Of a stretch of 64,000 nucleotides of DNA, positions 7,435 through 61,511 are shown piece by piece. The position numbers and the translations under genes were made by a program. The stretch comes from Periweissella cryptocerci (lineage in GTDB: Bacteria; Bacillota; Bacilli; Lactobacillales; Lactobacillaceae): assembly GCF_004358325.1 (NCBI RefSeq), contig NZ_CP037940.1, positions 2,356,001 through 2,420,000 on the forward strand, written 5' to 3'. The number at the start of each line of letters is the position of its first letter. The stretch's first letter is position 1. The notes beneath the pieces were generated by a model. The model was given only the letters and a program-made list of their open reading frames with translations, was not told the DNA's origin and searched no databases.

Positions 7435-7696
7435 AGCTCTATTTTGGCTGGCGTGGGATTGAATAAAATTGGCCACTATGTGCCAGTAACTACCGGTACT
7501 CCGTTAGTTTGGAATAATGTAAATAGCGAAAAATAGTTATCAATCACAGGCTGCAGTAGCATGAAAAAACATTGACAATAAAGCCTCAGTAATTCAACGA
7601 TTGAAAAGAAAAGAAAAGAAAAGAAAAGAAAAGAAAAGAAAAGGAAAGGAAAGGAAAGAAAAGAAACGATAATACTACGTTAGAAAAAATGTAGCC
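7435..7696 (+). mobile_element. Family A MITE-like element, short form with pentamer expansion (A1)
   Basis: About 262 bp. Left tip AGCTCTATTTTGGCTGGCGT, then GGGATTGAATAAAATTGG; right end CTACGTTAGAAAAAATGTAGCC. It has only a vestige of the first hairpin module (gtgccagtaactaccggtac) and keeps the conserved tail (tagcgaaaaa, cacaggctgcagtagcatgaaaa, attcaacgattgaaaag). Flanks TTTTTAGT and ACTTTTGT match at only 5 of 8 positions, so no clear target duplication. It abuts a family B repeat. Confidence 0.65.
7602..7667 (+). repeat. Pentanucleotide microsatellite (AAAAG/AAAGG)n
   Basis: About 13 tandem AAAAG units, some AAAGG, inside family A element A1. Other copies read gattgaaaagtacagaaacg here, so the tract grew by expansion of one AAAAG. 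Confidence 0.9.
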
Positions 7697-7790
7697 ACTT
7701 TTGTACCACGTTAATACGCCTGATTTCTACCTTACTACGATAAGGAGAAATCAGGCGTATTTTGTAGGCTGGACAAGTTATGTCCTAACC
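7697..7790 (+). repeat. Family B hairpin repeat (B2)
   Basis: Core stem AATACGCCTGATTTCT (7713 onward) pairs with AGAAATCAGGCGTATT (to 7761), with an inner CCTTA / TAAGG. The tail gtaggctggacaagttatg is shared with other copies. Relative to most copies an A-T pair is replaced by C-G in both arms. Confidence 0.85.
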
Positions 7791-7840
7791 TCGCGTTTTA
7801 ATGTAGGACATTATTATGTATCATGCTTAAATTAGTGCAA

Positions 7841-7875
7841 AATAAAAGACCCGCATTCACAGGAATGGGGTCAGT
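7841..7875 (-). terminator. Minus-strand terminator-like hairpin without an obvious gene
   Basis: On the minus strand GACCCCATTC - CTGT - GAATGCGGGTC is followed by TTTTATTTT. I see no minus-strand gene that it would serve. Confidence 0.5.
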
Positions 7876-7950
7876 CTAACTTAGCCTTCTGGAATCCCGT
7901 AGGATCAGATGGCGGGGTTAATCGGGTAAAGTAAGTATACCACACGCAAA

Positions 7951-7997
7951 TCGTAAGTGGTACGTATTTTTGCTAGTGATTTTTCGTAAGCGGTACG
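7951..7997. promoter_or_regulatory. Direct repeat upstream of the YdeI/DUF1801 gene
   Basis: TCGTAAGTGGTACG (7951-7964) and TCGTAAGCGGTACG (7984-7997) match at 13 of 14 positions, 33 bp apart start to start, about three helical turns. Possible regulator sites. Confidence 0.4.
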
Positions 7998-8039
7998 GTA
8001 AAATAACACTAATATTATAGAAACGAAGTGAGGTTTATC

Positions 8040-8633
8040 ATGGCCGCAGTTAACATTAATCCAAAAGTTGATGAGTTTGTCGCAAATACAAAAGTTTGGC
8101 AAGCTGAAATAATTAAATTACGCCAGCTACTATTAGCTTCAGAATTACAAGAAGACTACAAGTGGCGAAAGCCAACGTACTCATACAATGAACAAAATCT
8201 ATTTGGTATCTTACCATTGAAGAATCACCTATCACTGCTGTTCATGAAGGGGTCAGTACTTGATGATCCAGCTGGTCTACTAATCCAGCCAACTGAAGAT
8301 TCACAAGTACAACGCCAAATGCGTTTTACAAGCTTGGATGACTTGCTTGCAAAAGAAGGTACAGTGGTCGCGTACATCGCGGCCGCAGTTGCCGCAGAAA
8401 AAGCTGGTATCCAACCAGTCTATGCAGAACCTAAAGCGATTCCAACACCATTGGAATTACAAACGATGTTAGATGATAATGACGAGCTACACACGGCTTT
8501 TGATCGATTGACACCTGGTCGCCAAAAAGCTTACAAGCGGTATTTTGGGGATGCAAAGCAGTCAGCAACACGGGTTGCGCGAATTGAAAAATTCATTCCC
8601 AAAATTTTAGCGGGAAAAGGATTAGCAGATTAA
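8040..8633 (+). CDS. YdeI/OmpD-associated family protein with DUF1801 domain
   Basis: 197 residues. The N-terminal two thirds (KVDEFV... YKWRKPTYSY... ILPLKNHLSLLFMKGS) is the DUF1801/YdhG-like domain; the C-terminal LTPGRQKAYKRYFGDAKQSATRVARIEKFIPKIL is the YdeI-type bacteriocin-protection tail. Biochemical role is not settled for the family. ATG 8040 is chosen over an in-frame GTG at 8028 because AAGTGAGGT sits between them at good spacing. Monocistronic. A second DUF1801 protein lies at 20,803-21,144. Confidence 0.8.
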   Translation: MAAVNINPKVDEFVANTKVWQAEIIKLRQLLLASELQEDYKWRKPTYSYNEQNLFGILPLKNHLSLLFMKGSVLDDPAGLLIQPTEDSQVQRQMRFTSLDDLLAKEGTVVAYIAAAVAAEKAGIQPVYAEPKAIPTPLELQTMLDDNDELHTAFDRLTPGRQKAYKRYFGDAKQSATRVARIEKFIPKILAGKGLAD

Positions 8634-8643
8634 GTAAAAACAA

Positions 8644-8672
8644 TTACACTGTAAACGCTTACATGGTATTAT
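8644..8672 (+). promoter_or_regulatory. Promoter with a perfect CcpA cre site in the spacer
   Basis: TTACAC (8644-8649), 17-bp spacer, TATTAT (8667-8672). The spacer contains TGTAAACGCTTACA (8650-8663), which fits the cre consensus TGWAANCGNTNWCA at every position. A CcpA dimer bound there should block RNA polymerase, so glucose repression is expected (inference). Confidence 0.65.
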
Positions 8673-8677
8673 ATATC

Positions 8678-9037
8678 TTGTAAGGAAGAACCATAAGAAT
8701 CCGATACCAGATAATCGTTTAGTAGTTGTGAGTGATTGTGGCCGGGTTTGCTGGAGGTTTGCTCTCGACTAATACCAGGTAGATTACCAAGTTAGCGACA
8801 ACTAATCGCAGTTAGATTAGCATGAAGCACAGGATGTTTTCGGTGCATAAAGTTATTAGCCAGGCAAAGTAGTTTCGTAAGACTTGTGGGTGTCCATGTC
8901 CCATGCTTTGATCAAGCGGAAACGCCAACAGTTTTAATGAAGTCCATTTCTCGGGTAAGTAAACGTTGAATTGGCGTGATTCTTCCGTTAAATAAAAGTA
9001 GCCCCGCTCGCGAGAGTTAGGGGCCTTTTATTTTGGA
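8678..9037 (+). ncRNA. Candidate structured noncoding RNA, cre-controlled, about 350 nt
   Basis: The region between the cre promoter and a strong terminator has no plausible ORF (only a 14-codon GTG frame with no ribosome site). It is rich in local pairings: TAGTTGT (about 8722) with ACAACTA (about 8800), CTAATC-GCAGTTA-GATTAG (8804-8821), GCAC...GTGC (8827-8846), the GNRA hairpin GCG-GAAA-CGC (about 8917-8926), and CGCCAA with TTGGCG (about 8925 and 8972). It ends in AAATAAAAGTAGCCCC ... GGGGCCTTTTATTT (8991-9037) with GCTC-GCGA-GAGT inside. I could not match tmRNA, RNase P, SRP or a known riboswitch. Confidence 0.5.
8991..9037 (+). terminator. Terminator of the candidate ncRNA
   Basis: Outer stem AAATAAAAG / CTTTTATTT, GC stem AGCCCC / GGGGCC and an inner GCGA-capped stem; T-rich on both strands. 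Confidence 0.8.
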
Positions 9038-9073
9038 AAATTGGTAAGGGTTACTAAATTGGATAGTAATGAG

Positions 9074-9111
9074 AAGGCATTGAGTTGGTAAAGCAACTTA
9101 GTGCCTTTTTT
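9074..9111 (+). terminator. Second terminator upstream of the TetR/YhgE unit
   Basis: Stem AAGGCATTGAGTTG / CAACTTAGTGCCTT (14 pairs with two G-T), 6-base loop, T tract. Confidence 0.75.
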
Positions 9112-9195
9112 ATTGCAGACTGGCATGATACGCTACACATATACCATCGATAATAGTGATAAATTAATTATCAAAATAATAATAAACAAAAATAT

Positions 9196-9273
9196 AGTTA
9201 AGCAACTTTTGTTTGTTTTCACTAAAGTTATGCAATTTTTGTTGTTTAACTCGACGAGTGGTGGTAGTATCAT
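9196..9273 (+). promoter_or_regulatory. Promoter and probable operator of the TetR/yhgE operon
   Basis: TTTAAC (9245-9250), 17-bp spacer, TATCAT (9268-9273). The half-site AGTTAAGCAAC (9196-9206) recurs as AGTTATGCAA (about 9226) and inverted as GTTGTTTAACT (9241-9251, 10 of 11 matching), which overlaps the -35 box. Autoregulation by the TetR protein is likely. Confidence 0.5.
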
Positions 9274-9302
9274 ATCATCGAGAAATATTAAGAAGGCAAG
9301 TC

Positions 9303-9995
9303 ATGGAAGTCAAAAAAGAAGATGCACGCGTACGCAAAACGAAGCAAGCTATTGTGAGTGCGTTGAATACGCTATTGGAAACAAAAAATATTACTGAAAT
9401 TTCAGTACAAGAAATTTCAAGTGTGGCTGGAATTAATAAAACAACTTTCTATAATTACTACACTGATGTGAATAAATTAGTAAAAACGATTGAAGATCAG
9501 GTTTACGCAGACATTGTGGTGTATGTTGATCAAGTTCAAGCGACTGATCCAATTGAAATTATGGCATCAATGTTTGAGTATTTTGATGAAAATGCTGATT
9601 ATGTGACGCTACTGTTTAAAAGTCAGGCGACCATTTCATCTGACAATCGGCTACAAAATTTATTTGAACAAGAATTTGAAGCTGAGTGGATGACGTTGAT
9701 GCCGGGTGTTGACAAAATGGAGGCCGAATATCAAATCTACTTTGCGATTTCAGGTTTCATTGGAATTGCTAAAAAGTGGATTCTAGCTGGACGCCCAGGA
9801 AGCGTTAAAAAGGTTACGAAATTGGCGGAAACCATCATTCTACGCGGGATGAATACGGTGACGGTAACGCCTGATAATAAAAAATTGCGAGATGCTCAGC
9901 ATAAACTGGCAAAGTTAGAGGAAGCCAAAGCAAAGCAACTAGCAGAATTTGATCGAAAAAAAGCTGAAATTATGATTGATTTGGGTACAGAATAA
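9303..9995 (+). CDS. TetR/AcrR family transcriptional regulator
   Basis: 230 residues. The N-terminal TetR helix-turn-helix is clear (TKQAIVSALNTLLETKNITEISVQEISSVAGINKTTFYNYY split over residues 10-52); the C-terminal 25 residues form a charged helix (KLEEAKAKQLAEFDRKKAEI). ATG 9303 follows AGAAGG at six bases; longer upstream frames run into the promoter. It precedes yhgE by 52 bp and the pair is a common arrangement in lactic acid bacteria, so it probably represses its own operon. Confidence 0.88.
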   Translation: MEVKKEDARVRKTKQAIVSALNTLLETKNITEISVQEISSVAGINKTTFYNYYTDVNKLVKTIEDQVYADIVVYVDQVQATDPIEIMASMFEYFDENADYVTLLFKSQATISSDNRLQNLFEQEFEAEWMTLMPGVDKMEAEYQIYFAISGFIGIAKKWILAGRPGSVKKVTKLAETIILRGMNTVTVTPDNKKLRDAQHKLAKLEEAKAKQLAEFDRKKAEIMIDLGTE

Positions 9996-10047
9996 GGGTG
10001 CAATTTTAAGGCGTTGTTGAAAAGAGATATATTAGGAGAATTTTGAA

Positions 10048-12591: not shown

Positions 12592-12602
12592 TAAAAAAAT
12601 TG

Positions 12603-12643
12603 AAAAGCTTGAACATCACAACTTGGTGTTCAAGCTTTTTTTT
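12603..12643 (+). terminator. Terminator after yhgE
   Basis: AAAGCTTGAACA / TGTTCAAGCTTT, 12 pairs, followed by a long T tract. Confidence 0.85.
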
Positions 12644-12663
12644 GCGCCAATGTAAACAAAAGG

Positions 12664-13057
12664 GGCTCTATTCCGTCTGACGTGGGATTGAATAAAATTG
12701 GCCACTGTGTGCCAGTAAATTACTTGGCGCACCACGCTGGAAGCACATTGCCAAGCCGAAGTGCGGTCTTGGCAAACTCGGATAAGCTGGGACTCTACGG
12801 GAATAAATTCCCTAGACTCCTCATCTCATCCTCAGCGGCGACATGCGTTTCACACATATCGCCCCAGTCGCGGTGTAAAGGCTGCGCCCGCCAAGCAATT
12901 TACCGGCACTTCGTTGGTTAGTAATAATTCTCAAACTAGCGAAAAATAATTGCCAACCACAGACTGCAGTAGCAAAAAAAACACTTACAAAGGAGCTTCA
13001 GTAATTGGATGATTGAAAAGTACAGAAACTACAATCCCACGATAGAAAAATATAGCC
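12664..13057 (+). mobile_element. Family A MITE-like element, medium form with hairpin module 1 (A2)
   Basis: 394 bp. Left tip GGCTCTATTCCGTCTGACGT then GGGATTG; right end CAATCCCACGATAGAAAAAT then ATAGCC. Flanks ACAAAAGG (12656-12663) and ACAAAAGC (13058-13065) are an 8-bp target duplication with one mismatch. Module 1 is closed by TGCCAGTAAATTACTTGGCG (12710-12729) pairing with CGCCAAGCAATTTACCGGCA (12889-12908) at 18 of 20 positions and contains further hairpins (for example GGGAATAAATTCCC). No credible ORF: short open frames here are by-products of the repeat. Confidence 0.88.
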
Positions 13058-13195
13058 ACAAAAGCAACGCATAGTTCACGGTCGTTAGTTAAAGCCTTAT
13101 TATTTTGCTATTTCTAGGACGCCATCACCAAAATCTTCATATTTATATGAGAAGATTATCATTATAATAATTAAAAATTAATGGGGGACTGCGTA

Positions 13196-13369
13196 ATGAG
13201 ACAACAATTATATAAACGGATTGGTCAAAAAATATTGAAGTGGATGATTTCGTTTGGGACGGCACCAGTTACCCCGAGTTTAGTCAGTTCTGAGTTAGTA
13301 CACCGCCAACAAGCTCAGCTAGCCCGGCAGAACCATGTGTATACAGTTGGCGAAATTAATGATTTGTAA
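13196..13369 (+). CDS. Small protein, unknown function
   Basis: 57 residues, MRQQLYKRIGQKILKWMISF..., basic and amphipathic at the N-terminus, no clear membrane segment. A strong GGGGGAC lies seven bases before ATG 13196. An upstream in-frame codon at 13181 overlaps that ribosome site and is less likely. Gene family not recognised; a membrane-active or regulatory micro-protein is possible. Confidence 0.45.
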   Translation: MRQQLYKRIGQKILKWMISFGTAPVTPSLVSSELVHRQQAQLARQNHVYTVGEINDL

Positions 13370-14220: not shown

Positions 14221-15836
14221 GGCTCTATACTTTTTACTGTTGGTGGAGAAATCCGTCAGCAGTTTTTTATGTTCTTCGCGAGGGTGGAGCAAAGCGACAG
14301 ATGAGCCTAGAATAGATAATTATGTACAAAACAAAAAGGACATATTATGTCCATTCACCACGTTCCAACCGACAAAAATCAAAAAGTATGCGAGGTTATT
14401 TATTATGTCCCAAGACAATTGTATCTTACGTGAGTTAAATTTAAAAGATAAAAACATCCATTTTACCGACAATGAAGCAGGAGAATGGAACTATTTTGAT
14501 TATCGTGGTCGCGGAGACAAGCGACATAAATGCTTAATTTATACCGCTAATTTAACCTATTCCGTTAGCCGATGCAGTGACCTGTGGTCGTGATTGCGTC
14601 GAGCACTGGGGTGGACTTCAACCGAGATGCGACTCACTGGCACGAGCTTGTGATGTGCGCTTAGCGCTGCGTAAACAACGTTTTCACTGTAAGATTGTGG
14701 TAATACATTTACAGCAGCGTCATCCGACTTCGAAAGAACTGCCAAAATTTCCACGAAACACGAAAGTAATCGTAAAACAGAATCTAAACGAGATATGATG
14801 ACAAGAAAAACTGTAGCTAAGCACTTCATATCTCACCTTAATTCTGTACAACGAATCGAATATGACGCAAATATTACGAAGGCGGACAATACAAGTATCA
14901 ATACAATTTAAAAACAACAATTACCCGAAGCTATTTCCATGATGAGTTCCGCTCAGCCAATGATCAGTTTAGCTTTATTTGGTGTGATGCCACTTCAATC
15001 AAGCAATTTGAAGTACTGCCCAATCGACTAACCAAAACAATCAAACAATATTTTCTTGGATTTTCACTAGCTAATCGGAAGCGTGTTAAGCACGTTGTCA
15101 TGGATATGAACGCTCAATACGCCAGTTTCATTAAGTTCTTATTTCCGAACGCAGAAATCATTATCGACGGCTTCCATATCGCTCAGCGTATCGGTAACGC
15201 CTTGGATAGTGTTCGTAAGAACATTCAAAAACGCATTGATGATAAACAAAATAATCGAGCCTATAAAATCATGAAGAGTCAATGGAAAATCTTCCACATG
15301 ATGTATGAGGATCTCGAAAAAACGAAACCTTATTACATGCGTGGAATTAATGAATATCTAACACAAGAACAAGCGATTGGCATCGTCTTCGACGAATATC
15401 CTGAATTTGGTCAGGTTTGGACTGCATATCAGGAAATTATGAAAGCAATGCATAACAAAGATTTATCAGGTTTCGAAGACATCATCACTCATTACACGAT
15501 TATGGGAAACGATATGGACAGCGCAATTTCGACTTTCGCCAAGAATTATAAGGGAATTCAAAACAGCATCACCTCGAAACTATCAAATGGAACGCGTTGA
15601 AGGTATGAACCACAAATCAAACCAGCTTAAACGTAACTCGTGTGTTACAAAAATATGGCTCACTTACTCTGGCGAATCCGTCAAGATTTTTAGAATGTCC
15701 CAATCTCCATTTATTTGGCTCATATGTCACTCCGTTCCATCCTCGCAAAATAAACAAAAAAGGAACCAGAATCCATTAAGATTCTAGTTCCAAAATAGTC
15801 CTACCAACAGAATTTGACACAGAGCCCTTTTTATTA
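14221..15836 (+). mobile_element. ISL3-family insertion sequence, decayed, with intact 8-bp target duplication
   Basis: 1616 bp. The left end GGCTCTATACTTTTTACTGT plus TGGTGG and the right end (inverted: GGCTCTGTGTCAAATTCTGT plus TGGTAGG) are imperfect inverted repeats. The 8 bases before the left end (14213-14220, CTTTTTAT) are repeated exactly after the right end (15837-15844), as expected of ISL3. Upstream lies a terminator; downstream, the YdcZ-type permease starts 52 bp from the right end. The transposase gene inside is broken. Confidence 0.92.
14405..15779 (+). pseudogene. ISL3-family transposase, multiply frameshifted
   Basis: Begins MSQDNCILRELNLKDKNIHF, typical of ISL3 transposase N-termini. 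The frame then breaks near 14,565 in the zinc-binding region, again near 14,700-14,800 and around 14,900. The DDE core is readable: FSFIWCDATS, DMNAQYASFIKFLFPNAEIIIDGFHIAQ split over about 15,106-15,190, continuing to residue GNDMDSAISTFAKNY. A last frameshift near 15,590 separates the NGxxEGMNHKSNQLKR block carrying the catalytic Glu. At least four lesions, so no active enzyme is expected. Confidence 0.88.
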
Positions 15837-16844: not shown

Positions 16845-17329
16845 CCGACTCATTTTATCACATGTTAATAAGCTGGATTTCTACCTTACACGATAAGGAG
16901 AAATCCGGCTTATTTTGCTGGGTGGACAAATTTTGTCCACCTTTTTGTTTGTGCAGACAAATTTGGACATTTACATAAAATGCCAATCTAATGACATTGA
17001 TTAACACTATCTTATTGAATGACGTTTTACTAAAATGCACAAATTCACAAAAAAGTCACACGTTTGAAGTTTTTGCGTTGACGACGCTTTCACAGAACAT
17101 CGGGACTGCATTTTTGGGGACAAGCGAGTACATTGTAGTTATCGAAATATTTATCAGTTGATTTTAAGGCGAATAATTATGGATGGATTTTCAATTAAAA
17201 TACGTATCTATCGAAAAATATGATAAAGACTCCATTGTATTTAGGAAGACTGCTATTTTTGTACAATAAATCCCGAACAACGTGCGTTAAATTGTTGAAG
17301 CCGTAGCAGATATGGAGGCGGGCTAGTAG
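16845..17329 (+). repeat. Intergenic region with family B repeat (B4)
   Basis: The family B core is at 16,867-16,915 (AATAAGCTGGATTTCT ... AGAAATCCGGCTTATTTT) with tail gggtggacaaattttgtcc. The remaining 380 bp is AT-rich; I see no ORF with a ribosome site and no clear promoter, although the 17330 gene needs one here. Confidence 0.75.
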
Positions 17330-18548: not shown

Positions 18549-18934
18549 TTGTTATTTGAATTTACGAGTAGAAAATGGTGTTTTACCTGTAAAATAGTAC
18601 AACATTTGCTAGGCGTAACTAAATTATTTTTGACGTTAATAGTGGGTGGGACATAACTTGTCTAGCCCACAAAATAAGCCTGATTTCTCCTTATCACAAG
18701 GTAGAAATCAGGCTTATTGACGTGCGACTAAAGGCTTCCGGGCGTGACTAGGTGCAAGAAGACACTAAAAGGTGGGTAGGGTACTTAATAGTGCCTACTT
18801 GTTGAAAGGGATGGTTGCATTGATAATTACTCCAGTAAGTTTTACTAGTAAGAACTTAAATTTTAGTGGAAATGGGGTTACGGAAAAGGATTGTGAAGGT
18901 GTAGGCAATGAAGCGAATAAGGGGTAGAAATGGA
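18549..18934 (-). repeat. Intergenic region with inverted family B repeat (B5)
   Basis: The core at 18,673-18,719 (AATAAGCCTGATTTCT ... AGAAATCAGGCTTATT) is flanked on the left by gggacataacttgtctagcc, the inverted family tail, so this copy points to the minus strand. The rest holds no convincing gene. Confidence 0.75.
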
Positions 18935-20649: not shown

Positions 20650-20795
20650 ACAAGTGGGACAAACGGCGGTTACCATGAATCATACCTGAATTTGTCCCGA
20701 CTAAAAAATTTTGGCACGATAATAAGCCTGATTTCTACCAATGAGGAGAAGTCAGGCTTATTTTGTAGGCTGGACGAATTATGCCGCCATTTGTA
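20650..20795 (+). repeat. Family B hairpin repeat with leading hairpin (B6)
   Basis: A leading GTGGGACAAA ... TTTGTCCCGAC pairing is followed by the core AATAAGCCTGATTTCTACC ... GGAGAAGTCAGGCTTATT (20,720-20,763) and the tail gtaggctggacgaattatg. It separates convergent genes and could terminate both. Confidence 0.8.
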
Positions 20796-21207: not shown

Positions 21208-21310
21208 GTGGTACAAACGGTTGCAGCCTTTTGTACCACGTTAACAAGCCGGATTTCTACCTTACTACAATAAGGAGAAATCCGGCTTGTTTTGCGGGCT
21301 GGACAGGCAC
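21208..21310 (+). repeat. Family B hairpin repeat, most complete copy (B7)
   Basis: Two hairpins: GTGGTACAAA / TTTGTACCAC, then AACAAGCCGGATTTCT (21,243 onward) / AGAAATCCGGCTTGTT (to 21,292), with an inner CCTTA / TAAGG. The first two changed pairs (T-A to C-G, T-A to G-C) are altered in both arms relative to B8. Confidence 0.85.
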
Positions 21311-21344: not shown

Positions 21345-21884
21345 TTAGTCAAAATAGTTTTCTTTAACATAAGTGACGAGTGGTTCAATCGCAGCTTTAT
21401 CAGTGAAATCAACGACATTCCCAAATGTATCCAAAATCGCTTGGTCTTCGGCAGTTAATGCACTGTCTTTTTTACGCCCGAGAACAAAATTTTTCAACAT
21501 AAGTAAGACTGTTTTATCAATGAAACCGAGTTTAGCATAGTCAATTGCTCCCCGAAAGTGAAACATGGGAATCTGCCGGCGCTTATCGGTTGGAATTGCG
21601 CGATTAATGACATCGGTATAGTCAGTCGTGGTTGGATCCGATAAACCAACTGTAAAACCGATGACGTCACGATGAGGGTGCTCCCGGAGAATGCCAGCAC
21701 CACTAATATCACCTATAAATAATGAGCCGCCATAAATAATGAGATCATAGTCCAACAGTTCATCAGGTCGGATTTGATCACGACTGCGTAATTCAGTTCC
21801 CAGTTCCTCCGCAATCCAAGTGGCATATTGCTTGGTTGAACCATATTTAGATTTATAGAGTACCAAGATTTTTTTATTAGGCAT
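21345..21884 (-). CDS. Flavodoxin-domain protein (HemG-like), copy 1
   Basis: 179 residues with flavodoxin fold: phosphate-loop-like KILVLYKSKYGSTKQYATWIAEELG at the N-terminus, then DLIIYGGSLFIGDISGAG. It resembles protoporphyrinogen-oxidase-like flavodoxins (HemG/YfeD type) rather than short electron-transfer flavodoxins. It is a paralog of the gene at 22,274-22,810; both point the same way, separated by a family A insertion. No heme biosynthesis genes are nearby, so the redox partner is unknown. Confidence 0.82.
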   Translation of the reverse strand: MPNKKILVLYKSKYGSTKQYATWIAEELGTELRSRDQIRPDELLDYDLIIYGGSLFIGDISGAGILREHPHRDVIGFTVGLSDPTTTDYTDVINRAIPTDKRRQIPMFHFRGAIDYAKLGFIDKTVLLMLKNFVLGRKKDSALTAEDQAILDTFGNVVDFTDKAAIEPLVTYVKENYFD

Positions 21885-22072: not shown

Positions 22073-22248
22073 GGCTAATATTTTTCTAGATGAAGTGAAC
22101 CCCCAGTATTGGACCGAAGTTCTATTGCCAGTGTTTTTCTCCCATGCTACCGCGGCCTGTAGGTGATAAATGTTTTTTGCTAGTTACATTATTCTTAACT
22201 AACGTAGTGACCAATTTTATTCAATCCCACGTCAGACATAATAGAGCA
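22073..22248 (-). mobile_element. Family A MITE-like element, short form, minus orientation (A3)
   Basis: 176 bp. On the minus strand it reads (T)GCTCTATTATGTCTGACGT, GGGATTGAATAAAATTGGTC and ends TCTAGAAAAATATTAGCC. Flanks AAAAAAGC (22,065-22,072) and AAAAAAGC (22,249-22,256) are an exact 8-bp duplication. The hairpin modules are absent. It sits in the T tract of the terminator for the upstream flavodoxin paralog. Confidence 0.85.
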
Positions 22249-22275
22249 AAAAAAGCATCCAAAATTTGGATGCTT
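22248..22275 (-). terminator. Terminator of flavodoxin copy 2, T tract hit by family A element
   Basis: Minus strand: AAGCATCCAAATTTTGGATGC followed by TTTTTTT. The 8-bp duplication of element A3 lies inside this tract; the remaining T run is still seven long. Confidence 0.8.
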
Positions 22276-22810
22276 AAGCCACCTTTTCGTGAACATATTC
22301 AAGAAGGGGTAAAATACTTTTCCACTTACAAAGGTCAACTTGTTTGTCGTAGTATTTAAGGAAAGCCCGTTCGTCTGCAGTTAGCTTGTGCGTGGGCTTC
22401 AATTTTAGAATAAAGCTTTTAATTGGTACAAGAATTGTCCGTTCAAAGAAGCCGAGCATTTTGCAGTCGAAGCCACCATGAAAATGGAATACCGGCGTCT
22501 TTGTACGCCGATCAGCGGGGATATTACGCTCTAAGAGGGCGTGATGATCGAGGTCAGACGGTGGTGTCATACCAACTGTGAAAATGACCAGTTCGCGATA
22601 TGCACGCTTCATTAAATCATTAATGCCCCGAATTGTTCCAGCGGAAATGGCACCGCCGAAAATGACTAAATCGTACTTTAACATCCCAAATTGTTCAATT
22701 TCACTGAGTTCAAGTAAGTCGGCTTTAAAAGCTTCCGCAATCCAAGTCGCGTATTGCTTTGTCATGCCAATTTTTGCTTTATAAATTACTGCTATTTTTT
22801 TACGTGTCAT
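22274..22810 (-). CDS. Flavodoxin-domain protein (HemG-like), copy 2
   Basis: 178 residues, same family as copy 1 (KIAVIYKAKIGMTKQYATWIAEAFK, DLVIFGGAISAGTIRG, PVFHFHGGFDCKMLGF). In the phosphate loop the second Ser/Thr cluster is altered (GMTKQ versus GSTKQ). Collinear paralog of the downstream gene; together they look like a duplicated redox pair of unknown partner. Confidence 0.8.
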   Translation of the reverse strand: MTRKKIAVIYKAKIGMTKQYATWIAEAFKADLLELSEIEQFGMLKYDLVIFGGAISAGTIRGINDLMKRAYRELVIFTVGMTPPSDLDHHALLERNIPADRRTKTPVFHFHGGFDCKMLGFFERTILVPIKSFILKLKPTHKLTADERAFLKYYDKQVDLCKWKSILPLLEYVHEKVA

Positions 22811-29222: not shown

Positions 29223-29958
29223 GGTTTTATTCCGTCTGACGTGGGATTTATAAAATGTGATGTATGATGCCACTGCGTGACTGAAAATCACATTGTGCAC
29301 CGAGATGGAAGCACATGCCCAAGCCGCTTGCTTATGCCTGAGGTACGACAACGCAAAACATTCCAGCAGTTTGTTTGCAACAAACAACTGAATCTAATCA
29401 AAACCCGATTAGATTAGCCTTCCAGGCTGAATGTCTGTCTTGGGCAATTCGGGATAGCCGGCAGTCTAATGGCTAAAGCCAAAAGACTGCTCACATTTGT
29501 AGCTACGCTGGACAAATAAGGCCCGGTCGGTTCTACCCTCAGCGACAAACTCGACACGTGGTGTCACGTCCCATTTCGGTGTAAAGCCTACCGGCCACAA
29601 AGTGATTTTCAGTCACTCCGCTAGATAAGCGTAGAATTATTGATTACCGCTAAACTTGCAGTGACAAGGATTAGGGCATATTACTAGTCAGACTGCGTGC
29701 TCAAACTAACGAAGAGGCTGGAAACAGGCTGGACTTTAGTTCGCACCGTGATGGCATAATCAGTAACGGGTTTCGTTACTGATTATGGATTTGTGAAGAT
29801 GGTTACCGCGTTAGCGAACCAATCTTCGCAAACATTTGAAGACCGCACTGTGGCTTCAAATGCTTGTCTTCCATCACGGTGTCCAGACTGGTTCCAGCCT
29901 CGTAGTGGGAATCAATCTGAGACGTATATCCAAATCCAGCGCTAGAAAAATTTTAGCC
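29223..29958 (+). mobile_element. Family A MITE-like element, long form with modules 1 and 2 (A4)
   Basis: 736 bp. Left tip GGTTTTATTCCGTCTGACGT then GGGATTTATAAAATG; right end CCAAATCCAGCGCTAGAAAA then ATTTTAGCC. Flanks CTTTTCGA (29,215-29,222) and CTTTTTGA (29,959-29,966) match at 7 of 8. Module 1 uses a different closing stem from A2 (GTGACTGAAAATCAC near 29,277 with GTGATTTTCAGTCAC near 29,600). Module 2 (29,714-29,901) is a 188-nt multi-hairpin unit. No protein-coding potential seen. Confidence 0.88.
29714..29901 (+). repeat. 188-nt structured module 2, copy 1
   Basis: Outer stem GAGGCTGGAA / TTCCAGCCTC; second stem CACCGTGATGG (29,744-29,754) / CCATCACGGTG (29,871-29,881); then three hairpins: CATAATCAGTAAC-GGGTTTC-GTTACTGATTATG, GTGAAGATGGTT...AACCAATCTTCGC, and CATTTGAAG...CTTCAAATG. 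Nearly identical to 48,893-49,080. Confidence 0.85.
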
Positions 29959-33433: not shown

Positions 33434-34846
33434 ATGGCTGCACAAACAGAAAAGAAGTTAAATCTGACGTGGATTTTCATTCCATTGAGTTTGATATTGT
33501 TCATGTCGACACTTGATCAAACGATTACGACCACCGCGTTAGATGGGATTGTCAAAGACCTAGGACACCTCAACCAATCAGCGTGGATTATCACGGGATT
33601 CATGTTAACTAGTGCCGTGATGACATTGATTTTTGGAAAACTCGGTGATATTTTTGGTCGCAAAATCATTTTACAAATTGCGTTGGCGATATTTATTTTA
33701 GGTTCACTATTTAGTGGCTTAGCACATTCAATGTTATTTTTGATTATCGCACGGACATTCCAAGGTATCGGTGCGGGAGGATTAAATTCATTGGTACAAG
33801 CGGTCACGGCAGATGTGGTACCAGCACGTACTCGTGGAAAATATCAAGCTTTGTTTGGATTGATCAGCATGGTCAGCTTAATTGCTGGGCCAATCTTGGG
33901 TGGTTACTTTGTTCAGTATGCTTCATGGCAATGGATTTTCTTTATTAACATTCCAATTGGAGTCATCGCTTCGGTAATCTTGGCAATTAAGTTACATTTG
34001 CCAAGCCGGGCAAATGTGGTAACAAAAATTGACTATTTAGGAAGTGTTTTTGTAACAACATTTACAGCATTAACTTTATTGATTGTGACATTAGGTGGCG
34101 AACAAGTTGCGTGGCACTCCGCAAAAATGTTCTACATGATTATTGGGGCAGTTGTTTCATTAATTGCGTACCTAATTGTGGAACACCGGATGCAAAAGGA
34201 CGCGTTAACACCACTACCATTGTTCAAAAATTTGACGTTTAACAATGCGAGCTTACAATTTGCACTCGCCACAGCGGCATTATTTGTCGCAATGGTCTTT
34301 ATCCCAATGTATGCGCAAATGATTCACCACGTTTCAGCTAGCCATTCTGGTTATTACATCATTCCAACGATGATTGCGATGATTATTGCAACGATGGTCG
34401 GTGGTGCAATCATCGAAAGAACTGGTAAATACAAGCTTTTGCCAATTATTGGGGCGGTTTTATTGGGCGTTGGTTTCTATGGTTTGGCACAAATTAGTTT
34501 AAATTCAGCCAATTGGTTTATCATTTTGTGGCAAATTCCCGTGGGCTTAGGCGTTGGCTTGTTTGTCCAAGTTGCAATGTTAGCTGGACAAAATACCGTG
34601 CCAGTGCGGGATCTTGGTACGGCAACTGGTGTTTTGAATTTCTTTAAAACCCTAGGCGGTGCCTTTGGTGCAGCAGCCTTTGGTGTAATCTTAACTAATG
34701 ATATGGGGACGCATTTGGCTAATCCGATTCACGCCTTCCAAACGGTCTTTATCTGGACAATTCCAATTGCGGTAGTTTTACTTATTTTGGCGGTGTTCTT
34801 GAAGGAAGAACCATTGTCTGAAGAAGTCTTAGCATATGAAGATTAA
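33434..34846 (+). CDS. MFS multidrug transporter, DHA2 (EmrB/QacA) family, 14 helices
   Basis: 470 residues. N-terminal LSLILFMSTLDQTITTTALDGIVKDL contains the Asp of the DHA2 signature (LDxTIVNVAL type); motif A FGKLGDIFGRKII; motif C GPILGGYFVQYASWQWIFFINIPIG. Proton-coupled drug export is the likely role. Controlled by the divergent TetR through three operators. Confidence 0.9.
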   Translation: MAAQTEKKLNLTWIFIPLSLILFMSTLDQTITTTALDGIVKDLGHLNQSAWIITGFMLTSAVMTLIFGKLGDIFGRKIILQIALAIFILGSLFSGLAHSMLFLIIARTFQGIGAGGLNSLVQAVTADVVPARTRGKYQALFGLISMVSLIAGPILGGYFVQYASWQWIFFINIPIGVIASVILAIKLHLPSRANVVTKIDYLGSVFVTTFTALTLLIVTLGGEQVAWHSAKMFYMIIGAVVSLIAYLIVEHRMQKDALTPLPLFKNLTFNNASLQFALATAALFVAMVFIPMYAQMIHHVSASHSGYYIIPTMIAMIIATMVGGAIIERTGKYKLLPIIGAVLLGVGFYGLAQISLNSANWFIILWQIPVGLGVGLFVQVAMLAGQNTVPVRDLGTATGVLNFFKTLGGAFGAAAFGVILTNDMGTHLANPIHAFQTVFIWTIPIAVVLLILAVFLKEEPLSEEVLAYED

Positions 34847-34864
34847 TTATTAAAAATGGAAGTG

Positions 34865-34975
34865 GGGTAAAAGGTGGTGTAGCCTTTTATCGGACGTTAA
34901 TAAGCCTGATTTCTACCTTACGATGAGGGGAAATCAGGCTTATTTTGTAGGCTGGACAAGTTATGCCTCAGCCTA
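34865..34975 (+). repeat. Family B hairpin repeat (B8)
   Basis: The core AATAAGCCTGATTTCTACC ... GGGGAAATCAGGCTTATT (34,899-34,944), the consensus form, with tail gtaggctggacaagttatgc. It lies downstream of the pump gene. Confidence 0.85.
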
Positions 34976-37159: not shown

Positions 37160-37450
37160 AGTGCGACAAAAGATGGTTTACAGCCTTTTGCTCGTTAATA
37201 AGACTCTATTTAGTCTGACATGGGATTGGCCACTCCGTTAGTTAGGTATAATACTCAAACTAGCGAAAACCGTTATAAACCACAGACCTCAGTAGTATGG
37301 AAAAAACACTGAGGACTAATAAAAATTCAGTAATTCGATGATTGAAAAGTACGAAAACGATAATTTCACGCTAGAATAAATAGAATGGTTAATAAGACTG
37401 ATTTCTACCTTACGATAAGGAGAAATCAGTCTTATTTTGTGGGCTGGAGT
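37160..37450 (+). repeat. Family B hairpin repeat split by a family A insertion (B9)
   Basis: Left part 37,160-37,201 (gtgcgacaaaagatggttta, cagccttttgctcgttaataa) and right part 37,388-37,450 (gttaataagactgatttcta ... aatcagtcttattttgtgggctgg). Joining them across the duplicated GTTAATAA restores a complete copy. Core arms AATAAGACTGATTTC / GAAATCAGTCTTATT carry a paired C-G to A-T change. Confidence 0.85.
37202..37387 (+). mobile_element. Family A MITE-like element, short form inside a family B repeat (A5)
   Basis: 186 bp. Left tip GACTCTATTTAGTCTGACAT then GGGATTGG; right end TTTCACGCTAGAATAAATAG then AATG. GTTAATAA is repeated exactly on both sides (37,194-37,201 and 37,388-37,395). Modules 1 and 2 are absent; the element goes from GGGATTGGCCACT straight to CCGTTAGTTAG. 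Confidence 0.88.
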
Positions 37451-48383: not shown

Positions 48384-49137
48384 GGAGCTATTTCGTCTGA
48401 CGTGGGATTGAATAAAATTGATCACTGCGTGCCGGTAAATTGCTTGGCGCACCACGCTGGAAGCAGCCGTCCAAGCCAAAGTACGGTCTTGGTCGGTACG
48501 GTCTTGGTCGGTTCGGACAAGCTGGGAGTCTAAGGAATAAATTCCTAAGACTCCTCATCTTATCCTCAGCGGAAATATGTGCTACACACATATTTCCCAG
48601 TCGTGGTGTAAAGGCTGCGCCCGCCAAGCAATTTACCGCCACTCCGTTAGTTAGTAATAATTCTCAAACTAGCGAAAAAACAGGTCACAGTAGCATGAAA
48701 AAATAACACTGATAGTAGAACCCCAGTAATTCGATGATTGAAAAGTACAGAAACGACAAATCCACAATAACGGCTCTATTTCGTCTGACCTGGAATTTAT
48801 AAAATGCGATGAGATGTATGATTAACGCTAAACATGCAGCGACAAGGATTGCGGGCATATTACTAGTCAGACTGCCTGCTCAAACTAACGAAGAGGCTGG
48901 AAACAGGCTGGACTTTAGCTCGCACCGTGATGGCATAATCAGTAACGGGTTTCGTTACTGATTATGGATTTGTGAAGATGGTTACCGCGTTAGCGAACCA
49001 AGCTTCGCAAACATTTGAAGACCGCACTGTGGCTTCAAATGCTTGTCTTCCGTCATGGTGTCCAGACTGGTTCCAGCCTCGTAGTGGGAATCAATCTGAG
49101 ACGCATATCCAAATTCCACGCTAGAAAAATTTTACCC
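48384..49137 (+). mobile_element. Family A composite element: A-type followed by B-type unit (A6)
   Basis: 754 bp between exact 8-bp flanks AACATAAT (48,376-48,383 and 49,138-49,145). Unit 1 (48,384-48,772) is like A2, with TGCCGGTAAATTGCTTGGCG pairing with CGCCAAGCAATTTACCGCCA, but its right end is eroded (CAAATCCACAATAAC). Unit 2 (48,773-49,137) starts again with GGCTCTATTTCGTCTGACCT, lacks module 1, carries module 2 and ends AAATTCCACGCTAGAAAAAT. The shared flanks show that both units moved together or that unit 2 arose within unit 1. Confidence 0.88.
48893..49080 (+). repeat. 188-nt structured module 2, copy 2
   Basis: Same length and fold as 29,714-29,901. The second stem here is CACCGTGATGG / CCGTCATGGTG; relative to copy 1 its 3' arm has A to G and C to T, and both keep pairing as U-G and G-U in RNA. 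An A-T to A-G loss occurs once elsewhere. Confidence 0.85.
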
Positions 49138-56113: not shown

Positions 56114-56132
56114 ATGACAGGGGGATTGGACT

Positions 56133-57521: not shown

Positions 57522-57607
57522 TAAATGTCAAATTTAGCTACTATTTTGTTGATTATTTATTAACTTAGAAGCTAGGAAAATGACAGTTAGCAAAAATAGT
57601 ATGGTTA

Positions 57608-57666
57608 GCTTCATTGTTGGTGCAACTTATTTGTTAAAATAAGTCGAGTTCGATTCTCGATGAAGC
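57608..57666 (+). ncRNA. tRNA-like fold in the leader of the GntR gene
   Basis: 59 nt. GCTTCAT (57,608-57,614) pairs with ATGAAGC (57,660-57,666). Inside lie GTTG-GTG-CAAC (57,616-57,626), CTTATTT-GTTA-AAATAAG (57,626-57,643) and TCGAG-TTCGATT-CTCGA (57,644-57,660), the last with the T-arm consensus GTTCGATTC. It is too short for a functional tRNA (about 73 nt expected) and the D and anticodon arms are atypical. Possibly a degenerate tRNA, a tRNA mimic or a regulatory leader. Confidence 0.45.
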
Positions 57667-57688
57667 AATAAGAAAGGTCGTGTCGATA

Positions 57689-58393
57689 ATGAAAGTAGTT
57701 TCCAAACCAGTCCAAGTATATAATTCGATTTTAGATAAGATTGATTCTGAACATTTTGTCGGAATGTTACCATCCGAAAACGACTTAACAAAATTATTCA
57801 ATGTTAGTCGCGGAACCATTCGTAGTTCATTGAATCTGCTTAAAGAGGACGGCATTATTAGCAGCATTAAAGGAAAGGGAAACATTATTAATGCCCATGT
57901 GACTAGCGAAAAAAAATCTGGGCTTGAAATTAATGATTCGCCGTTTTATAAGAGCTGTGACAAAGTAATTGAAAATGTTGATGCTTATTCTTTACGGCAT
58001 GCTGAGTCGAGCCACTCCAAGAAACTATTTGGTGCGGGTGATCATTTCACCATCAATCTTTGGTATGGTCCAGCTGACCAATACATCGGCAATGATTTTT
58101 GTATGGTTTCAAAAGAACTTGCGGAAGCGCATAACGTTGAAAGCATGAATTCAGAAGCATTACGAAATTTCCTGGAAAAGCAGCTATATGACCTGTCGAG
58201 TTATTCAACGTTATCAATGACGATTTCATTACGTGATAAAAGTGACTTTAAACGTAAATTTGCTGATGAAGTCAATCAATTAGTTGTATTGACGGAAGAT
58301 TTATTTGACAGTGATCATGCGCTACTGTGTCAATCAAAGTATTATGTACCACTCCAATTCTTTCGGACAATGCTCAACCGGACTAATTACTAA
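57689..58393 (+). CDS. GntR family transcriptional regulator
   Basis: 234 residues. Winged helix: VYNSILDKIDSEHFVGMLPSENDLTKLFNVSRGTIRSSLNLLKEDGIISSIKGKG split over 9-63. The C-terminal half (about 80-234) resembles an effector domain of UTRA type, but weakly. ATG 57,689 is preferred (AGAAAGG at suitable spacing). It is co-oriented with the nucleoside hydrolase and DcuC-like genes and likely controls them. Confidence 0.87.
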   Translation: MKVVSKPVQVYNSILDKIDSEHFVGMLPSENDLTKLFNVSRGTIRSSLNLLKEDGIISSIKGKGNIINAHVTSEKKSGLEINDSPFYKSCDKVIENVDAYSLRHAESSHSKKLFGAGDHFTINLWYGPADQYIGNDFCMVSKELAEAHNVESMNSEALRNFLEKQLYDLSSYSTLSMTISLRDKSDFKRKFADEVNQLVVLTEDLFDSDHALLCQSKYYVPLQFFRTMLNRTNY

Positions 58394-58534
58394 GAAATTG
58401 TGGGTCTGTAGTTTGGATGGTAAAACGCAGTGATTGTGAATTATGAGATGTTAAACGCGTTATTTATTGTAACGAGCGGGAAGCTATAGTCACTGGGCAA
58501 TTTTATGTTAATATTTAATATGTGAGGTTTTAAC

Positions 58535-59710
58535 ATGAAAAAATTATTGGTTATTGTTGGCGCAGTGATAGTAGTTTTTAGCGGATGCGTTTCAGGGCAA
58601 GTATCGGCTAAATCCAGCAGATATCAAACAATTGTGACAACTAAAAAAACAAAAAGAATTAAGTATTACATTAAGAATCCGAAACAAAAAACGGTATCAA
58701 AATTAAGCACTACACGGCGACAACGTCCCTTAAAAATAAAACAAATAAAATTAGCAAAAAAGATGAAACAAAGCACTTTGTATGCGATTAAAACAGTACG
58801 AGTGAAGAAGCCCATTCGTGGTTCAAAGTGGAATTATACGACGTACGTACTGTTAACAAGTGCGACTGGAAAAAAGGTTGGGTATGTCAAGAAGGCACAT
58901 TTAGAAAAAGGAAAATATTTAACGCCTGAACAACGCCAGTTATTAAAAGGTTATGTAACTGGAAATGTGCGCAAGCAACGCTTAGTTTTAAATAAAAGCG
59001 CGGTCAGACAGCTGTTGGCATTAACACCACGGCAAGTTACGACGCAGAGTAAAATTACGGATTGGCCGGCTTTAAATAAGGCAGTTATTTTTGGTGATTC
59101 GATTGCGCGTGGCCGTGAATACGTCGATGGGGAGGCAACAATAGCGGCAAAACCATTTATTAATGATGCTTTACAAAAAATTGGTGTAACTGGTAATATT
59201 CAGAATTATGCTTATTCTGGGTCGGGCGTGTGTGCTTATGCTAATAAATCATTTCCCCGTAATTTGGCTTGGCAAATTGATAACCGCAAGTTTGCTCGTT
59301 ATCCAGTGATTTTTTTGGCATATGGTACTAATGATTGGGGGCTCACTGTGCAGGGTAAGAAATCGCTCTTGCAAGTTGCTCGTACGTTAGATGATGATAT
59401 TCAAAAAATGCGTGAGCAAGCACCAGACACGAAAATACTAGCCGTCTTGCCGATTGACCGCTTTAATAGTAAGCATGATAATCTGTATACTAACTATAAA
59501 GTAAGCAAACAAGGCTACACGTTAGAAGAATTAAATGCAGTGTTCAAGCAAGTCTATCAAGCTAATGGAATTCCTGTATTCGACTGGCATCAAGGACAAA
59601 ATGCAGCCATAACATCGTACAAGGACATGTCAGACGGGGTGACACATCCGACGAAGCGTGGCTATGCGAAAATGGCTACAAAGTTAGCAGGCTGGTTACA
59701 GCAACAATAG
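58535..59710 (+). CDS. Secreted SGNH/GDSL hydrolase, probably lipoprotein
   Basis: 391 residues. N-terminal signal (1-21) with FSGC at the end, a plausible though imperfect lipobox; alternatively signal peptidase I after VSA. A basic SLAP/SH3-like region (about 30-130) follows. SGNH blocks: VIFGDSIARG (Ser, about 189-191), Gly in YAYSGSG, Asn in AYGTNDWG, and DGVTHP (Asp-His, about 370). Possibly an esterase acting on wall or surface glycans. Confidence 0.85.
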   Translation: MKKLLVIVGAVIVVFSGCVSGQVSAKSSRYQTIVTTKKTKRIKYYIKNPKQKTVSKLSTTRRQRPLKIKQIKLAKKMKQSTLYAIKTVRVKKPIRGSKWNYTTYVLLTSATGKKVGYVKKAHLEKGKYLTPEQRQLLKGYVTGNVRKQRLVLNKSAVRQLLALTPRQVTTQSKITDWPALNKAVIFGDSIARGREYVDGEATIAAKPFINDALQKIGVTGNIQNYAYSGSGVCAYANKSFPRNLAWQIDNRKFARYPVIFLAYGTNDWGLTVQGKKSLLQVARTLDDDIQKMREQAPDTKILAVLPIDRFNSKHDNLYTNYKVSKQGYTLEELNAVFKQVYQANGIPVFDWHQGQNAAITSYKDMSDGVTHPTKRGYAKMATKLAGWLQQQ

Positions 59711-59813
59711 TGGAATTAAACAGTGTGAGGTCAAGATGAATTATGTCTTGGCTTTTTTTAATGCGCTTGTGGTAACATTAAATTAGTGAAAATAGTTGAT
59801 TGGAGTAAATAAA

Positions 59814-60170
59814 ATGGCAGTAATTTTAAATAAACAAGTTGAATTTACGACGCGGGCGAATTCGATGTATACGTCAATTAATCCCAAACCGGGTATGTTG
59901 ATATTTGGTGATGGCGGCGTTGAATTTCGCGCCAATGCTGGTAATGGCTTCATTCAAATCCCATGGCGGGAAGTGACTGGGGTTCGCGCACAAGCATTTT
60001 TCTGGAATAAATATATCCGCGGATTCTTCATTGATACTAAATCGGGTTCGTTTAATTTTGTCGTGAGTCGCGCCCGGCAAGCTCTGACGGTTATGGATCA
60101 ACACTTGAGTCGAGATGTTATGTCGATTAACGAAGGTTTAGTTCAACGTCGACTTAAGAAGAATAAATAG
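59814..60170 (+). CDS. manO: DUF956 family protein (ManO)
   Basis: 118 residues: NKQVEFTTRANSMYTSINPKPGMLIFGDGGVEF, IQIPWREVTGVRAQAFFWNKYIRGFFIDTKSGSFNFVVS. ManO usually lies in the mannose PTS operon and regulates it; here it is 5 kb downstream, in front of the M24 peptidase gene. ATG 59,814 follows GGAG at nine bases. The displaced location suggests rearrangement after an ancestral linkage. Confidence 0.87.
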   Translation: MAVILNKQVEFTTRANSMYTSINPKPGMLIFGDGGVEFRANAGNGFIQIPWREVTGVRAQAFFWNKYIRGFFIDTKSGSFNFVVSRARQALTVMDQHLSRDVMSINEGLVQRRLKKNK

Positions 60171-60186
60171 AAAATAGGTGAATCCA

Positions 60187-61269
60187 ATGTATACAACACG
60201 AATTGAACGGCTTAAAAAAATGTTGGCAATGATGGAAATGGACGGTTTGTTTGTTACTAACGGGTTTAACATGCGTTACTTAACCGGTTTTTTAGGCGGT
60301 AATGGGGATGGTGTTGTTTTAGTTACTAAACAAAGTGTTTTGCTGATTACTGATTCTCGCTATGAAGAAGAACTTAAAGCAAGTTTACCAGCTGAAGTAA
60401 CGCTAGTGATTACGCGCGATTATTATCAAGAGGCCGCTAAGCAAACTGAAAAAGCCGGAGTATTACGGTTAGGATTTGAGGATGATTTAGCGTTCCGCGT
60501 TTTTGACTTAATGGACGAATTACTTGTTGTCGAAGACTTTTTACCCGTTCCTGGAGTGCTTGAGGCATTGCGCGAAATCAAGGATCAAACTGAAGTGACG
60601 GCATTACGCAAATCAACGGCAATTTCAGTGGCGGCATTCAACCAGTTGTTGCCAAAGTTACATGTTGGCATGACTGAAAAAGAGGTCGCTAATGAATTAG
60701 ATTATTTGGCGCGGAAGCTAGGTGCGCAAAAAGCTTCATTCGATACGATTGTTGCAAGTGGTTGGCGTGGGGCATTACCCCACGGTTTAGCAACTGATAA
60801 AGTAATTGAGACTGGTGAATTAGTGACGATAGACTTTGGCTACTATGTTGATGGCTATACTTCTGACATTACACGAACGATTGCTTTTGGTGAAGTTAGT
60901 GATGAACTAAAACATATCTATCAGACCGTTTTAACTGCGCAAAAGCGGATTATTGCGGAAGTGTTCAATGGTGTGGCTTCAAGTGAACTTGACCGAGTTG
61001 GCCGTGAATATATTACGGCACAAGGTTATGGAAAAGAATTCAATCATGGTACGGGGCACGGAATTGGTTTAGACATACATGAGGGACCAAACATTTCCCG
61101 GAGCCTGGATGATGAAATGGTTACCAATAATTTGTTGACGATTGAACCAGGAATTTACGTTGCTGGTTTGGGGGGCGTCCGGATTGAAGACGATGTGTTA
61201 GTGACACCTGCAGGTTATGAAAACTTAACCAGTGGAATTACGACAGACTTAATTGTGATTGATGATTAA
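60187..61269 (+). CDS. M24 family metallopeptidase (Xaa-Pro aminopeptidase-like)
   Basis: 360 residues. Creatinase-type N-terminal domain, then the pita-bread fold with metal ligands: DFGYYVDGYTSDITRT (two Asp), NHGTGHGIGLDIHE (His), LTIEPGIY (Glu), RIEDDV (Glu). Removes N-terminal residues preceding Pro or cleaves Xaa-Pro dipeptides. AGGTG precedes ATG 60,187; it starts 16 bp after manO. Confidence 0.92.
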   Translation: MYTTRIERLKKMLAMMEMDGLFVTNGFNMRYLTGFLGGNGDGVVLVTKQSVLLITDSRYEEELKASLPAEVTLVITRDYYQEAAKQTEKAGVLRLGFEDDLAFRVFDLMDELLVVEDFLPVPGVLEALREIKDQTEVTALRKSTAISVAAFNQLLPKLHVGMTEKEVANELDYLARKLGAQKASFDTIVASGWRGALPHGLATDKVIETGELVTIDFGYYVDGYTSDITRTIAFGEVSDELKHIYQTVLTAQKRIIAEVFNGVASSELDRVGREYITAQGYGKEFNHGTGHGIGLDIHEGPNISRSLDDEMVTNNLLTIEPGIYVAGLGGVRIEDDVLVTPAGYENLTSGITTDLIVIDD

Positions 61270-61280
61270 ATGAAAAGGGT

Positions 61281-61511
61281 GGCTTTATTTTGTCTGACGT
61301 GGGATGGAATAAAATTTGCTGGCACTCCGTTAGTTAGGATAATTCTCAGATTAGTGAAAAACAGTCGTAGAGGAGCAGATTCAATCAAATTAGTTATCAC
61401 TGATTTTGTGATGTGCTCAAACTTAGTGCCTGAGGTATATTTCATGGTACGCGAGTATTCTTAAACAAAAGTACAGAAACGACAATCCCACGCTAGAATA
61501 AATAGAAACGA
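61281..61511 (+). mobile_element. Family A MITE-like element, short form (A7)
   Basis: 231 bp. Left tip GGCTTTATTTTGTCTGACGT then GGGATGGAATAAAATT; right end CAATCCCACGCTAGAATAAA then TAGAAAC. Flanks AAAAGGGT (61,273-61,280) and GAAAGGGA (61,512-61,519) match at 6 of 8. It separates the peptidase stop codon from the terminator. The short open frame inside has no coding signal. Confidence 0.8.

Follow-up and report, generated by a model that had tools for sequence, protein, structure and literature searches.

Candidate ISL3-type miniature elements with polar placement and a covarying interior core in Periweissella cryptocerci

Insertion sequences (IS) of the ISL3 family have tips starting with GG and duplicate 8 bp of their target. 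The BOX, RUP and SPRITE repeats of Streptococcus pneumoniae are modular, folded, multicopy and intergenic, and SPRITE is terminator-like. Miniature inverted-repeat transposable elements (MITEs) are usually described as emptied IS with arbitrary interiors. MITEAba12 is reported to have no orientation preference (PMC6382973), and MRSC-65-2 is presented as a multicopy folded motif that possibly acts as DNA and sometimes lies near a transposase (PMC11109978). A 2010 screen listed Lacto-rpoB, Lacto-usp and Lacto-int among structured RNA candidates of Lactobacillales (PMC2864571). Here we describe family A, a set of small repeated elements in the genome of Periweissella cryptocerci (NZ_CP037940.1, one contig of 3,020,651 bases), found in a stretch of 64,000 nucleotides at positions 2356001-2420000 (the window). 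We consider it probable that these elements are ISL3-type MITEs with a polar placement and a portable folded core, X, that is kept for its function. In this family it is the interior that is conserved.

Genome-wide, the tip pattern had 180 matches with up to 3 mismatches (93 forward and 87 reverse), whereas a reversed-pattern control of the left tip had none at the same threshold. We scanned a sample made up of the window and 100 stretches around listed copies, which held 172 left-tip matches, 103 of them followed by a good right tip at a distance of 80-1,700 bp. The lengths of these two-tipped copies clustered near 190-260, 365-400 and 560-754 bp, with five more of IS length. Target duplications matching at 7 or 8 of 8 positions flanked 62 of the 103 copies: 40 were complete when a 1-bp shift was allowed (36 without it) and 22 matched at 7/8. 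When flanks of different copies were paired, 0.2% matched at 8/8 and 1.9% at 7/8 (together 2.1%); for the copies themselves, but not in this control, the right tip with a duplication was preferred where several were available. Three copies, A5 and those at genome positions 1975029 and 632691, lie inside other repeats whose uninterrupted form occurs elsewhere.

An ISL3 transposase profile matched 22 stretches of the genome. Four IS copies of 1,530-1,537 bp have a left tip, GGCTCTATTCCGTCTGACGTGGGTT, identical to that of family A and a right tip of the same type, and all four are flanked by exact 8-bp duplications. Their transposase matched NF033550 at 244.5 bits (cut-off 180) and PF01610 at 152.1. 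Family A carries both IS tips, and no other portion of the IS was seen in the elements. Because of the common tips and the common duplication length, we regard family A as MITEs of this ISL3-family IS, whose transposase, as judged from sequence, most likely mobilises them in trans. The preliminary description of the window had proposed MITE-like elements with 8-bp duplications; this is supported, and a partner IS is now identified. That description did not extend to the polar placement behind terminators, to Y (see below) as a reversed X-type unit or to the recurrence of such units in other genera on other tips. The only known element in which the tips were found is this ISL3 IS of the same genome, which favours the MITE reading. 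The target duplications set family A apart from REP/RAYT-type elements, for which a Y1 (IS200-like) partner was not searched for.

The best relatives of the partner transposase on plasmids were 33% identical, and a single scan of genome contigs gave one relative, a partial transposase (47%) in Paucilactobacillus nenjiangensis, with neither marker (see below) nor tips in the 10.8 kb inspected. No copy of A6, used as a DNA query, was found in 40 relatives, four congeners included, and A2 and A4 had no DNA match to plasmids. The four congeners have genomes of 1.8-2.0 Mb against 3.02 Mb here, a difference of which some 180 elements explain a small part only. A fragment of another, more distant transposase of the ISL3 family (PF01610, 113 bits) lies at 14941-15594 of the window, with no family A tips nearby.

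The placement of family A is strongly polar relative to genes, for which plain open frames from 90 codons upwards were taken. Among 98 two-tipped copies (IS-length copies excluded), the upstream gene lies on the strand of the element in 90, and gaps between codirectional genes hold 69 sense and 4 antisense copies. A wider set anchored at the tip5 end (n = 139) comprises 90 sense, 10 antisense, 36 convergent and 3 divergent placements; 5 further copies without a gene on one side bring it to 144. For 114 of these 144, the 250 bp upstream include the end of a gene on the same strand, the median distance being 59 bp. Of the 144 copies, 69 have a hairpin followed by a T-run in the 90 bp upstream on the sense strand, and 24 have one there on the antisense strand; downstream, the counts are 17 of 106 (sense) and 6 of 106 (antisense). 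At matched distances, a T-run was present in 26 of 264 windows at element-free gene ends versus 47 of 114 with an element. We infer that terminators are chosen as targets, beyond being merely tolerated.

The interiors of the elements are modular. Type I consists of a module X of ~220 bp plus a tail, and type II of a longer X plus a second module, Y; the remaining elements have Y alone, or neither X nor Y. X of A2 and Y of A4 folded beyond all shuffles (Table 1). In an alignment of 62 of the 63 copies of X (the A6 copy was omitted), 22 of 58 pairs changed on both sides, and the covariation score was 0.183, against 0.070 in shuffled and 0.034-0.056 in slid alignments. The most recognisable part of X is a hairpin with a 16-nt marker, AGCCAAAGTGCGGTCT. 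In the window, covariance model R2, from other genera, matched the marker hairpin alone, twice on each strand (E 0.001-0.02; Table 1), and no full-length model match to the window units was found. Given its marker hairpin on the minus strand and the order of its helices, Y reads as an X-type unit reversed, so that type II elements would have the arrangement X> <X. The marker hairpin (e.g., 12748-12775) contains AAGTGCGGT, the DNA uptake 9-mer of Haemophilus. The sampled DNA has this 9-mer 117 times, 109 times within elements anchored by a tip and 8 times in sequence still recognisable as X or Y; because of this confinement we do not regard it as a signal for uptake, and the identity is probably a coincidence. 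Rfam 15 gave no match at gathering score in the window, and relaxed-threshold matches on A2 and A4 were rejected as chance.

X is not restricted to the host genome. A covariance model of X had matches in 21 of 301 Lactobacillaceae genomes, host included, many matches of model R1 being confined to its positions 46-73, which are the marker hairpin. The marker itself, with at most one mismatch, was present in 61 of the 397 Lactobacillaceae genomes searched, again with the host included, and at least 3 times in 45 of them, from seven genera (g1, g4, g5, g12, g16, g20 and g52, with g1 counted through the host genome alone). Its maximum count is 194 in the host genome and 154 elsewhere, while the reversed marker never exceeds 2 in a genome. 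The marker is absent from the four congeners. In a class-wide draw of 200 genomes, 3 of the 199 besides the host had a single one-mismatch match, which is about the control rate. Five viral contigs carry the exact marker, and since none has an R2 match at E 0.001 these were taken as chance and a phage origin was rejected.

Around the marker, units from other genera share one architecture: a long basal stem, an internal loop (often GGAACG), the marker hairpin, one or two further hairpins and a return strand. Bases of the loop and the internal loop are conserved across genera. The units have two structural forms; for one of these, 44 units were thinned to 25 representatives, of which 24, all diverged, were aligned. 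Both sides change in 34 of the 46 pairs of this alignment, and 91.2% of cells pair; the covariation score was 0.554, versus 0.160 shuffled and at most 0.144 slid. In a larger alignment of 110 matches (102 distinct places), 44 of the 46 pairs change on both sides, this alignment having been fitted to the cross-genus model and hence being biased towards it. Neighbouring matches in other genera that lie at most 700 bp apart face each other in all 31 distinct pairs. Twenty loci from other genomes gave no Rfam match. At one locus (L220, contig C10 of genome G164), the X match stops after the marker hairpin and later rejoins at a reversed unit start; with its 3' half, this is perhaps a rearranged or interrupted unit.

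In two of these genomes, G208 and G226, X lies between tips of a second kind. The ISL3 transposase profile had no match in either, and X units are bracketed by an inverted repeat, ACGCTTGGTGCTAGTT, with 130 matches in G208 and 137 in G226, whose copies around X are mostly ~395-405 bp apart. Repeat pairs in genus g52 had 7-8/8 duplications in 8 of 12 cases (four genomes, shifts of up to 2 bp on each side) and 8/8 without shift in 3 of 6 pairs of an overlapping set, counts that lack a shuffled control. A repeat differing by one base occurs in a relative, G480 (contig C3), 988 bp apart around a 293-aa IS982-family transposase (NF033520, 268.5 bits); the comparison covered the 16-nt tip, and the partner lies in that relative, not in G208 or G226. 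Core units of one kind therefore sit on two unrelated ends, and a covarying fold of the same kind between ISL3 and IS982-like tips suggests that X is probably selected. The gaps occupied in other genera (51 distinct loci, from 54 listed minus three second views) are codirectional in 29 cases, convergent in 17 and divergent in 5.

Taken as a mechanism, family A would be non-autonomous elements with the two ends of the ISL3 IS, mobilised in trans by its transposase and duplicating 8 bp of an AT-rich target on insertion. The tip5 end adjoins the upstream gene at its 3' end, in many copies straight after the terminator hairpin, with the T-run duplicated. The larger elements hold one or two X units, facing when there are two, in an interior that is not IS sequence. 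X would be kept for a function of its fold, most likely that of an RNA read from the centre outwards, and the folded X may help the element to persist or spread.

Some of our observations weigh against this reading. That the elements move at all we infer from the sequence of one genome, and X cannot be essential for movement, since A1, A3, A5 and A7 lack it. The polarity might reflect survival, other insertions having harmed neighbouring genes and vanished, or it might follow the direction of replication; we regard this as a possible explanation, though a doubtful one. Consistent with this, elements with other tips avoid divergent gaps too (5 of 51), and the convergent gaps of family A favour the leading-strand orientation by 25 to 11 (two-sided p 0.03). 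Codirectional gaps on the lagging strand hold only 6 sense and 3 antisense copies, the direction of replication being taken from gene direction with the switch placed near 1.6 Mb. Replication may contribute to orientation, and targeting may not be separable from survival if 3' ends simply tolerate insertions. However, survival alone would not lead one to expect the sharp peak in T-run position: in 32 of the 69 hairpin-associated copies the T-run starts 4-12 nt from the tip, so that the T-run itself is the duplicated target. Nor would it lead one to expect T-runs over A-runs before the tip (60 versus 13 of 144). IS-length copies have the same polarity where it can be read. For four of the five IS-length pairs an upstream gene could be named, on the same strand in 4/4, or in 3/3 without the pair at 195044, which is probably a chance pairing of tips.

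The reading of X is weakened by other points. In the 62-copy test, the further pair types were matched by 23 of 500 shuffles; covariation in Y (48 of 49 copies aligned) is nearly nil, with 1 of 84 pairs, as Y varies too little; and the single IS982 copy, in G480, has an unclear duplication (5/8). If family A were an ordinary deleted IS, the interior would be meaningless filler. The IS tips and the existence of short copies without X agree with this, and it may hold for the short elements; for the larger ones it is largely refuted by the compensatory change in the interior and by a marker that recurs across the family far above its reversed control, with chance-like single matches in the rest of the class. 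As a general account we find it very improbable. A further question is whether X acts as RNA. Structured RNAs tolerate G-U pairs and not A-C pairs, and in a benchmark of 30 Lactobacillaceae RNase P RNAs the ratio of G-U to A-C was 128:10. X shows no G-U excess on the marker strand, either in the host genome (27:43) or across genera (18:30), and the larger set is similar (112:161 for all, 98:106 nonredundant). X could thus be a structured DNA that a protein recognises as a cruciform or a single-strand hairpin, or palindrome-templated repair could keep its arms matched; its occurrence in either orientation to the tips (58 same, 51 opposite) would suit this. We think such a DNA role conceivable, but not the better explanation. 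Refolded on the complementary strand, X has ratios of 111:30 (host genome) and 35:14 (cross-genus) with better consensus energies, and Y, counted on the same unit strand (complementary to the marker), has 57:13, so that the excess always falls on one unit strand. It is far below the RNase P level, and the count is limited by the shared ancestry of copies and by refolding, which favours G-U pairs. Repair alone would not explain loop and internal-loop bases conserved across genera. Of 202 units, 181 are also more stably folded on the complementary strand, but asymmetry of stability says little because random window pieces show it too (the plus strand folding better than the minus in most of 100), and we relied on the G-U counts. 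We therefore lean towards an RNA on the strand with AGACCGCACTTTGGCT, which would be read outwards on both sides of a two-unit element. Finally, X may be a folded module that is both selfish and portable, either RNA or single-stranded DNA, captured across the Lactobacillaceae by non-autonomous elements of unrelated transposase families, whose copy number it drives. We consider this rather unlikely; if true, X would be a bacterial counterpart to the RNA-derived cores of short interspersed elements (SINEs), the complete elements having two outward-reading units.

In the window, all seven family A loci of the preliminary description were recovered at their positions with the tips, sizes (176-754 bp) and duplications given there, as seven plus-strand units and one minus-strand unit (Table 1). 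They total 2,738 bp, or 4.3% of the window, where its estimate was about 5%. The duplications match at 8/8 at A3, A5 and A6 and at 7/8 at A2 and A4, as it had stated; that of A2 was counted with the right flank shifted by 1, and that of A3 was read by eye, its right tip not being paired by the tip scan. At A1 the match is 6/8, and only after a 1-bp shift, and the whole two-unit A6 is flanked by one duplication. Its statement that none of the elements encodes a protein also stands as far as the short tail frame is concerned, which is not conserved among the 34 copies compared; this check covered the tail frame, and frames of at least 80 aa overlapping A6 were not compared among copies. A conserved tail peptide was rejected, as the frames differ between copies. 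When A1 is aligned to A2, X is skipped. A run of AAAAG units at 7598-7665 is a microsatellite within A1. A3 lies directly behind the hairpin and T-run of a minus-strand gene, the open frame 22274-22810. This frame and the adjacent minus-strand frame 21345-21884 are of similar length and share a 69-base stretch at 75%; the two, which flank A3, are perhaps one duplicated gene. A second repeat family, B, consists of ~60-93 bp palindromes (AATAAGCCTGATTTCTACC...GGAGAAATCAGGCTTATT), often with terminator-like terminal T-runs, and its palindromes are insertion targets of family A copies. The target of A5 is found in uninterrupted form in the paralogous repeat at 34842-34965.

Table 1 Family A elements, their modules and repeat B copies in the window (positions in the window).
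Feature	Position	Strand	Description
A1	7435..7696	+	short, without X; degraded tips, 3 and 4 mismatches
A2	12664..13058	+	type I: one X unit and tail; tips, 7/8 duplication
X unit of A2	12703..12923	+	z -6.4 versus shuffles; alignment of 62 copies
Marker hairpin	12748-12775	+	model R2
A3	22073..22248	-	short, without X; 8/8 duplication AAAAAAGC
A4	29223..29958	+	type II: long X, then Y; tips, 7/8 duplication
Long X unit of A4	29268..29637	+	module comparison
Y module of A4	29642..29922	-	z -8.9 (folded 29643-29958); model R2 match
Marker hairpin in Y of A4	29834-29861	-	model R2
A5	37202..37387	+	short, without X; 8/8 duplication; inserted in repeat B palindrome
A6, first unit	48384..48771	+	type I without own right tip; X 48423-48656
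Marker hairpin in X of A6	48468-48495	+	model R2
A6, second unit	48772..49137	+	Y only
Marker hairpin in A6, second unit	49013-49040	-	model R2
A7	61281..61509	+	short, without X; tips 2 and 3 mismatches; duplication 6/8
Repeat B copy	7713-7773		palindrome
Repeat B copy	16851-16928		palindrome
Repeat B copy	18644-18736	-	palindrome
Repeat B copy	20714-20774		palindrome
Repeat B copy	21243-21303		palindrome
Repeat B copy	34881-34973		palindrome
Repeat B copy	37388-37448		palindrome

Compared with known systems, family A resembles the ISL3 IS in its GG tips, its 8-bp duplication and the transposase family, which is that of its partner, and differs in having no transposase gene. It resembles BOX, RUP and SPRITE in being modular, folded and multicopy, from which it differs in host family and, as judged from descriptions, in sequence. 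The passages of PMC10969869 on these repeats describe no single core on the tips of unrelated transposases. The Lacto- candidates that carry Rfam numbers would have matched in the cmscan search and none did, whereas Lacto-int is given without an Rfam number in the relevant passage and so falls outside this comparison (PMC2864571). X is like MRSC-65-2 in copy number and fold, the conserved repeat of the latter being UYCCGG (PMC11109978), and the text of that paper contains no word starting with Lactobac or Lacti. The text of the MITE review (PMC10969869) contains none of 'Lactobac', 'ISL3', 'IS982' or 'orientation', and no account of a polar placement behind terminators was found for ISL3 elements. 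We call family A and X undescribed in the sense that searches of the open-access literature found nothing like them.

The IS-derived bacterial MITEs described in PMC10969869 and PMC6382973 are likewise small and gene-free, with inverted tips, target duplication, an IS in the same genome, AT-rich intergenic targets and stable predicted folds. Unlike these, family A and X have a covarying interior that is common to several genera and to different tips, and unlike MITEAba12 as described there (PMC6382973), family A is strictly oriented to the upstream gene. MITEs of an ISL3 IS are of a familiar kind; what is new is that these are placed in a polar way and carry a portable covarying core. Two questions become testable: can a transposase aim at terminators, as sites of safe insertion, and can a folded nucleic acid itself be what is selfish, with transposon ends as mere carriers?

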